Part shown: one piece after another, positions 47,129 through 50,554 of the stretch | Layout: every line of letters starts with the position of its first letter | How positions within the stretch are numbered: position 1 is the stretch's first letter | Assembly (NCBI GenBank): GCA_943787435.1 | Contig: CALSMK010000008.1 | Coordinates: 62,001-126,000 of the forward strand | Reading direction: 5' to 3' | Origin: an uncultured Flavobacteriales bacterium | Lineage (GTDB): Bacteria > Bacteroidota > Bacteroidia > Flavobacteriales_D > Sanyastnellaceae | DNA length: 64,000 nt | Made by a program: the position numbers and the translations under genes | Notes under the pieces: model-generated | The model's database searches: none | Told to the model about the DNA's origin: nothing | The model's input: the letters and a program-made list of their open reading frames with translations, nothing else

Positions 47129-48001
47129 TCACCTCAAAATGAGGTCTGTGGTGGCGATGCGATTCCCCTCGTCGACCAAATGCACGGTGTACACCCCCTC
47201 CACAAATGGCTCGGCTGCCGTGAAGAAGATGCACGCTTCCATGCGCTCCCCATTGTAATCCAGCATGCGAGAGGCAGAAGCTGGTTCGCCACTTGGCATG
47301 GCCACAGGGCTCCGGTCTCCGGGTGGAAGAAGGCGCCCGCTCGGGTCCACCACTTCCAAAAACAAGGCCCTTTGGCCCTTCTCCGCAATGCGGTTTTCCA
47401 TGAGGGTAAAGCAGGTCTTGATCATTTCAGCTCGCTTGGCCCTTTTGGTTTCCCTTTGTGAACCCGTGCTCGCTACACGGATGGCCATGGGCATCAGATC
47501 CAAGGCTTGAAGCACCCTTCCCGCCTCAATGATCCCTTCCATGTTTTCTTGGCGGCGCTGCAAATCGGCATTCCGTTCCTCGACTTGCACCACTTGATCG
47601 GCCATGGCATCTCTCTCCTGTTGCAAAGCGATGTTGGCTTGGTTGAGTGAGTCTATGGTCACCACATAGCCCTGCATGATTCGCCTCAACGTATTGGCCT
47701 CTTTTTTGAGTTTGGACACGCTGTAATTGCGGTCGCGCACTTTTTTAATCAAGCCCTCGATTTCACTGCGCTGAGCAGACATCTCGGCCATCATGAGCGA
47801 GTTTTCGGTCTGCAAAGTGTCATAGCTGAAACGCAAGCGCTGCAAATCGAGCTCCATGGCCTCGCGCTCCAGGTTTCCAGACATGATTTCACCAGACTGA
47901 TTGTCGATGGTGGTCCCTTGCTCAGAAACCTGATAACCGAGATATCCTGCAGTCAGGACCAATGCGGCAATGATGATGAGGTATGTAGAACGCTGTTCCA
48001 T
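47129..48001 (-). CDS. Membrane-anchored coiled-coil protein
   Basis: 290 residues from ATG 48001 (MEQRSTYLIIIAALVLTAGY, signal anchor). Residues about 30-170 are a long charged heptad region (ELDLQRLRFSYDTLQTENSL, KVRDRNYSVSKLKKEANTLR, RRQENMEGIIEAGRV), then a compact C-terminal beta domain (QRALFLEVVDPSGRLLPPGD, ACIFFTAAEPFVEGVYTVHL). Conserved-hypothetical look; I know no function. A periplasmic tether or scaffold is plausible from the layout. It is 73 bp downstream of yraN on the same strand. Confidence 0.8.
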   Translation of the reverse strand: MEQRSTYLIIIAALVLTAGYLGYQVSEQGTTIDNQSGEIMSGNLEREAMELDLQRLRFSYDTLQTENSLMMAEMSAQRSEIEGLIKKVRDRNYSVSKLKKEANTLRRIMQGYVVTIDSLNQANIALQQERDAMADQVVQVEERNADLQRRQENMEGIIEAGRVLQALDLMPMAIRVASTGSQRETKRAKRAEMIKTCFTLMENRIAEKGQRALFLEVVDPSGRLLPPGDRSPVAMPSGEPASASRMLDYNGERMEACIFFTAAEPFVEGVYTVHLVDEGNRIATTDLILR

Positions 48002-49567: not shown

Positions 49568-50554
49568 ATGTCCGACAGTCCCCGTTCCCGCAAGCCTAAG
49601 CGCACTGGCCGCTCGGAAGATCCAAGCCGGCGCAAGTCAGAAGGGTCTGGACCCGAAAAGCGGGGCTTCGGCACGCGCAAATCGCTGTCAGACAAGCCCA
49701 AAGAAGATTCGCGTCCAACCCGCGGAAAAGGCAAGACACACGGCAAAGACAATCCGTTTGCAAAAGGAGGAGGCAACGACAGGAGACCCGGAGGCCGTCC
49801 CCAAAAGCCCAAGAAGCGCCCTCCATTGAAGGACCTCGATGCGCCCTTGAGGCTGAACAAGTTCATTGCGAACTCAGGGGTTTGTGTGAGGCGTCAAGCT
49901 GATCTTTTGATCACCGCCGGTGCCGTCACCGTCAATGGAGAGGTGGTCACCGCACTGGGCTCTAAGGTTCACGCCACGGATGAAGTGGTGGTGGAGGGCC
50001 AGCGCATCAAGCCAGAAAAAAAGCACTACCTGCTGCTCAACAAGCCCAAAAACTTCTTGGGGACTGCAGGAGACAAGCAAGGAAGGCGGACCGTGATGGA
50101 CTTGGTCAAAAATGCCACCCGAGAGGTGCTCTTTCCCGTCGACAAGATGGAGCGAATGGACACCGGCCTGCTGCTGTTCACCAACGATCCGGAAATGTCA
50201 GAGCGCCTGCGCGCCCACGGAACCAAAATCCGCCAACTCTTTCATGTGACCCTCCGTCAAAAAATGCGCTCCGAGCATTTGGTGGCCATGACTGAAGGGG
50301 TGGAAACCGAGTCGGGGTACATCAAAGCTTCTTCTGCAGAATTCGTAGACGAGAGCAAGAGCCCAAAAGAAATTGGGGTAGAAATGCACTCCAACAGGCC
50401 CAAGGCATTGGCCAAAATGCTGGAACATCTGGGCTATGATGTAGAGCGCATTGACCGCACCATCTTGGGTCCCTTAACCAAGCGAGACCTTCCGCGCGGA
50501 CATTGGCGCTTGCTGGACCGCGAAGAGCTCAACTTGCTCCGAATGACCCTATAA
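49568..50554 (+). CDS. RsuA/RluB-family pseudouridine synthase-like protein with altered catalytic motif
   Basis: 328 residues. A long basic, low-complexity N-terminus (residues 1-90, rich in Arg, Lys, Pro, Ser) precedes an S4 RNA-binding domain (LRLNKFIANSGVCVRRQADL). The synthase domain follows (YLLLNKPKNFLGTAGDKQGR, RTVMDLV). The family's catalytic motif GRLDxxTxGLLLxTND appears here as DKMERMDTGLLLFTND, so the catalytic Asp is Glu195 (codon 50150-50152) and the Arg is Lys. The later conserved NRxVRRMFEHLGY is SNRPKALAKMLEHLGYD. The C-terminal DRTILGPLTKRDLPRGHWRL is family-like. Either a diverged enzyme or a non-catalytic RNA-binding paralogue. The reading frame shows no sign of indels. 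Confidence 0.85.
   Translation: MSDSPRSRKPKRTGRSEDPSRRKSEGSGPEKRGFGTRKSLSDKPKEDSRPTRGKGKTHGKDNPFAKGGGNDRRPGGRPQKPKKRPPLKDLDAPLRLNKFIANSGVCVRRQADLLITAGAVTVNGEVVTALGSKVHATDEVVVEGQRIKPEKKHYLLLNKPKNFLGTAGDKQGRRTVMDLVKNATREVLFPVDKMERMDTGLLLFTNDPEMSERLRAHGTKIRQLFHVTLRQKMRSEHLVAMTEGVETESGYIKASSAEFVDESKSPKEIGVEMHSNRPKALAKMLEHLGYDVERIDRTILGPLTKRDLPRGHWRLLDREELNLLRMTL

Follow-up and report, generated by a model that had tools for sequence, protein, structure and literature searches.

Whether the enzymes that modify rRNA are retained for the modification that they introduce or as RNA-binding factors in ribosome assembly is an open question that is usually approached with laboratory mutants. A locus from an uncultured marine bacterium of the order Flavobacteriales raises this question in the form of an RluB-type protein with a substituted active site. 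The window that we analyzed is a 64,000-nucleotide stretch of contig CALSMK010000008.1, part of an assembly (GCA_943787435.1) of 2.12 Mb that is 78.5% complete; the ORF of interest, with its frame read from the window, occupies positions 49568–50554 of the forward strand and encodes a protein of 328 amino acids that combines S4 and PseudoU_synth_2 domains. We propose, with a probability of roughly 0.6, that this protein has lost pseudouridine synthase activity and has been kept as an RNA-binding protein, most likely a 50S assembly factor. The observations behind this proposal are the active-site substitutions, their conservation and recurrence, purifying selection on the gene, the preserved RNA anchor and substrate hairpin, and the lack of a second rluB. 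The repeated decay of the active site in this marine bacterium and its relatives suggests that the protein matters beyond its chemistry, probably in ribosome assembly.

Domain architecture and active-site substitutions

The protein begins with a basic, low-complexity tail of residues 1–91 (49568–49840, forward strand, as are all features below), which is rich in Gly, Pro and Ser, contains 29 Lys/Arg and 12 Asp/Glu residues, evolves fast and is presumably disordered. The tail is followed by an S4 RNA-binding domain (residues 94–140; 49847–49987), in which the arginine matching Arg17 of Escherichia coli RluB is kept, and by a PseudoU_synth_2 match (residues 153–258; 50024–50341). Both domains pass the respective Pfam gathering scores (46.7 bits against 22.8 for PF01479 and 35.2 bits against 26.8 for PF00849), and the C-terminal LPRGHWR motif (50489–50509), whose Arg and Gly are conserved in orthologues with and without the Asp, is retained, in agreement with the initial annotation, which had described the S4 domain, the fold and the C-terminal end as preserved. 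In a PDB sequence search, the nearest solved structures were those of RluF, RluB, RsuA and RluE, all of the RsuA family, with E. coli RluF (23S U2604; PDB 3dh3), which shares the two-domain build, as the top match (E 1e-26). The NCBIfam model TIGR00093 yielded 86 bits, below its cut-off of 109.3 bits, and the RluF model outscored the RluB model, both scores being far below the equivalog cut-offs. An AlphaFold2 model computed from an alignment of seven close sequences, which is not deep, had a pLDDT of 46; support for the fold of the catalytic domain comes from the sequence profiles.

The alignment with E. coli RluB (23S U2605; PDB 4lab/4lgt) extends over residues 95–325 of the query, spanning the S4 and catalytic domains, and reveals differences at five active-site positions, in addition to the basic 91-residue tail that sets the window protein apart from its E. 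coli counterpart. Glu195 (GAG, 50150–50152) replaces the catalytic Asp110, and Lys193 (50144–50146) replaces the base-flipping Arg108; Phe225 (50240–50242) stands in for the active-site Tyr140, as judged from the alignment together with the literature; and in motif III, Lys279 (50402–50404) and Ala282 (50411–50413) replace Arg194 and its neighbor Arg197, respectively. The initial annotation had correctly recognized the Glu at the position of the catalytic Asp, within the segment VDKMERMDTGLLLFTND, as well as the alteration of the second motif, which reads HSNRPKALAKMLEHLGY in the ORF; Lys193, Phe225, Lys279 and Ala282 had not been named as single residues.

Published mutants of homologues bear on the expected consequences. 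The Arg108Ala and Tyr140Phe variants of RluB retain 0.6% and 2.8% of wild-type activity, respectively, RluA is inactive with Lys or Met in place of the base-flipping Arg, and catalytic-Asp mutants of TruA, TruB, RluA and RsuA are inactive (PMC3919597). By analogy with these mutants, we infer that the window protein is no longer an active pseudouridine synthase.

Locus, conservation and recurrence of Asp loss

Between positions 47129 and 53056 of the window, a gene for a 310-residue protein, yraN, an upstream ORF of 389 residues, rluB, a DPM-synthase-like glycosyltransferase gene, pyrC and a small lipoprotein-like gene succeed one another in an order that is largely conserved across the family. 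In Asp-bearing and non-Asp relatives alike, yraN adjoins rluB, usually followed by the glycosyltransferase gene and pyrC; given this identity of the locus, the change in the catalytic site must have happened in place, and the window protein, which occupies the same locus, is orthologous by vertical descent to the RluB-type 23S rRNA pseudouridine synthase of the order. The window protein, whose top structural match is E. coli RluF, coexists with a separate, intact RluF paralogue (L002, GRLDKPSEG), and the two RluA-like proteins and the RluE-like protein of the same genome keep the Asp in RLD. More complete genomes of the same genus and family likewise contain a single RluB-like gene plus RluF, and the RluF proteins of the same genomes are intact at all six tested positions (RDYRRR) in 11 of 11 cases. 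Compensation by extra synthases in the Glu genomes was considered and rejected, as the numbers of PF00849 genes in Glu and Asp genomes do not differ systematically.

A contig search with the window protein as the query brought up six close relatives; the named relatives are uncultured Flavobacteriales, and 'Crocinitomicaceae bacterium TMED114' falls in the window's genus. Among the 16 genomes of this genus that carry the gene, 15 encode Glu at the catalytic position, with a mixture of GAA and GAG codons across species, and the remaining one encodes Ser (G003, L017). The equivalent of Arg108 is Lys in 14 of the 16, that of Arg194 is Lys in the genus, and that of Tyr140 is Phe in the window species and Tyr in most of the genus. 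The protein core, in which 136 of 237 positions do not vary among 13 species of the genus, shows between-species dN/dS values of 0.02–0.10, at a near-saturated dS that is near or above 1 in most pairs. The incompleteness of the window genome (78.5%) might invite the explanation that the substitution is a sequencing or assembly error, or that a paralogue was mistaken for RluB with an intact copy located elsewhere. The probability of such a mistake is negligible: because Glu is common to 15 of the 16 genomes, Glu195 is not a sequencing error, and the explanation is refuted altogether by this sharing of Glu through differing synonymous codons, by the single RluB-like gene that accompanies RluF in the more complete genomes, and by the numbers of other PF00849 genes, which are not systematically raised in Glu genomes. 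The initial annotation had allowed for Asp reappearing in close relatives and for a second intact rluB, neither of which was found in the same-genus genomes (nor was a second rluB in the window genome), and for Glu being conserved in a clade, which it is.

The loss of Asp extends well beyond this genus. A DNA pattern for the Glu motif matched 48 of 399 genomes of the order, representing 10 of 70 genera (g1, g3, g4, g10 and g12 in the window's family; g29, g36, g54, g55 and g65 in another family), and the control matched none. A phylum-wide sample was searched with no restriction on the codon: among the matches listed, in which same-class rows apparently come first, the residue outside the order was Asp except for Gln, Ser and two cases of Gly, all in family f17. 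These four f17 proteins, from another order of the class (L173, L174, L175 and L176, with Gln, Ser, Gly and Gly, respectively), show other active-site losses as well. The claim of the initial annotation that all RsuA/RluB-type enzymes use Asp is contradicted by the occurrence of Glu, Ser, Gly, Asn and Gln at this position within the class. The compared orthologues comprise 100 proteins with Asp, 50 with Glu, 2 with Ser, 2 with Gly, 1 with Asn and 1 with Gln, counts that include a few repeated or fragmentary rows as well as E. coli RluB, one of the Asp proteins; with these removed, 97 Asp-bearing proteins face 52 others, among which Glu is the commonest replacement (46/52).

When trees were built with the active-site columns left out, the Asp/non-Asp state required 14–16 changes, and well-supported branches hold 10 independent pairs. 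Changes also recur at Arg194 (14), Arg108 (15) and Tyr140 (11), sometimes earlier than at Asp, as in g55, where Asp-bearing sisters already have the configuration KDFNKL. A paired test gave no significant coupling between the loss of Asp and that of the other residues, with too few informative pairs. The best reading of these sequence comparisons is that catalysis would have been lost repeatedly in related lineages with the protein retained. The catalytic residues of RluB thus appear to have been replaced some ten times or more, with strong selection preserving the protein along with its RNA anchor, locus and rRNA target.

Probable roles in RNA binding and ribosome assembly, and alternative explanations

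The equivalent of Arg17, the residue by which the S4 domain of RluB anchors RNA, is kept in all 52 Asp-less and all 97 Asp-bearing proteins, and both sets conserve the NKPK strand, the TND motif and the PRG end. The 23S helix-93 hairpin GAACGTCGTGAGACAGTTCGGTC, with its two uridines, shows no variation among the 32 family genomes that yielded it; seven of these belong to the window's genus, and Glu-bearing genera are represented among the rest. Since the window's own assembly (G000) gave no match to 23S helix 93, the substrate hairpin was read from same-genus genomes. The target nucleotide of the Bacteroidota RluB subfamily is assumed here: Glu135, with which E. coli RluB reads A2602 (PMC3919597), is lacking in the Bacteroidota orthologues, so that the identity of the substrate is uncertain, and a literature search found no papers on rRNA pseudouridines in Bacteroidota.

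Most likely, the S4 domain, the groove and the basic tail would dock the protein on the helix-93 hairpin or on a different stretch of rRNA in the nascent 50S subunit, where it would probably aid folding or maturation with the base left unisomerized, much as catalytically dead TruB and RluD mutants continue to sustain growth. Several published findings bear on this putative role in rRNA binding and assembly. RluB has been detected in pre-50S particles, and the catalytically dead E198A mutant of RlmB stimulates 50S assembly, whereas a dead RluC mutant failed to support it (PMC11194073); growth defects are reversed by dead mutants of RluD and TruB, as cited in PMC7356742.

The prevalence of Glu among the replacements and its conservation within clades imply that the carboxylate may keep a structural or catalytic role; with an acid retained in most events, the pattern agrees equally well with decay and with a carboxylate that is functional or structural. 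It is conceivable, then, that the window protein remains able to form pseudouridine, Glu serving as the acid and the changes in motifs II and III compensating for the longer side chain. The presence of Glu in 46 of the 52 Asp-less proteins, under purifying selection within clades, would suit such an enzyme, as would the order of events in lineages such as g55, in which Asp gave way to Glu after changes at Arg108, Tyr140 and Arg194, and the existence of g3, which keeps every other tested residue. We consider it unlikely nonetheless, because the window's genus has Lys for Arg108 (14/16) and for Arg194 and the window species has Phe for Tyr140, the Arg and Tyr mutants of homologues being nearly or wholly inactive (PMC3919597), and because the Ser, Gly, Asn and Gln found elsewhere are unable to serve as an acid. 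The two possibilities left by the initial annotation thus fare differently: the additional active-site losses favor an RNA-binding factor without catalysis, and a new active-site variant appears possible for clades of the g3 type. We regard it as doubtful that in several clades, above all g3 but also g10 and g29, Glu serves in place of the catalytic Asp in a working pseudouridine synthase; should it do so, the window's genus would mark an inactive stage reached later along the same path. A change of substrate, with the pocket retargeted rather than lost and the protein catalyzing or binding on a different RNA, would be in line with the missing Glu135 and with the higher score of the RluF model, itself far below cut-off; it is improbable in view of the conserved locus and S4 domain and the invariant 23S hairpin, and a protein that lacks several catalytic residues would hardly be expected to act chemically on any uridine.

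A further explanation is that the RluB pseudouridine is dispensable and the gene is drifting toward loss, the remaining protein having no selected function. An E. coli strain devoid of all seven rRNA pseudouridine synthases, RluB included, is described in the discussion of PMC11194073 as having only a very small growth defect. Moreover, a genome of 99% completeness (G033; family f1, genus g18) yielded no RluB match at E<=1e-30, only an RluF-like one, and its two sister species have decayed RluB active sites; rluB is apparently lost entirely in G033, and an RluB-type protein is accordingly not always needed. The two stop codons within the match in G281 point in the same direction. Such early decay is highly improbable for the window protein, considering the low core dN/dS even at near-saturated dS, the presence of the gene in 48 of 50 high-quality genomes of the family, the 136 invariant core positions and the RNA anchor, which none of the 52 Asp-less proteins has lost. 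Our preferred reading, loss of activity with retention as an RNA-binding assembly factor, has to contend with the Glu clade of g3 in which Arg108, Tyr140 and Arg194 are intact, with the dead RluC mutant, with the loss in G033 and with the non-significant paired test.

Two interrupted genes deserve mention in their own right. The RluB match in G281 (L160, G281:C179:1347-2240) is broken by two TAG codons and that in another genome (L060, G071:C10:37252-38145) by one TAA codon; either could be a pseudogene or an artefact of the start region.

Parallels with known systems and informative clades

A natural parallel is vertebrate RPUSD3, a pseudouridine synthase fold that has Gly in place of the catalytic Asp and no detectable activity (PMC12716993). 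RPUSD3 is a eukaryotic member of the RluA family and exists beside a close intact homologue, RPUSD4, whereas the window protein is a bacterial member of the RsuA/RluB family and the only RluB copy of its genome, and the Asp has been lost many times. The dead TruB and RluD mutants (cited in PMC7356742) resemble the window protein, as we interpret it, in functioning without their chemistry, but are laboratory constructs of enzymes that are active in their native form.

Ten species of g3 (L018, L039, L040, L042, L048, L049, L051, L052, L058 and L059) have Glu, yet Arg108, Tyr140, Arg194 and Arg197 are intact (REYRRR). Judging from these residues, an active Glu enzyme should be sought in g3 first. 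In g12 (G027, G092 and G091), with the gene located beside yraN, L019 and L045 have the configuration KEFNAD, in contrast to the ancestral RDYRRR of L046, and the genomes compared are complete or near-complete. This natural pairing of RDYRRR and KEFNAD species would make the question of whether the modification or the protein is what is retained directly testable.
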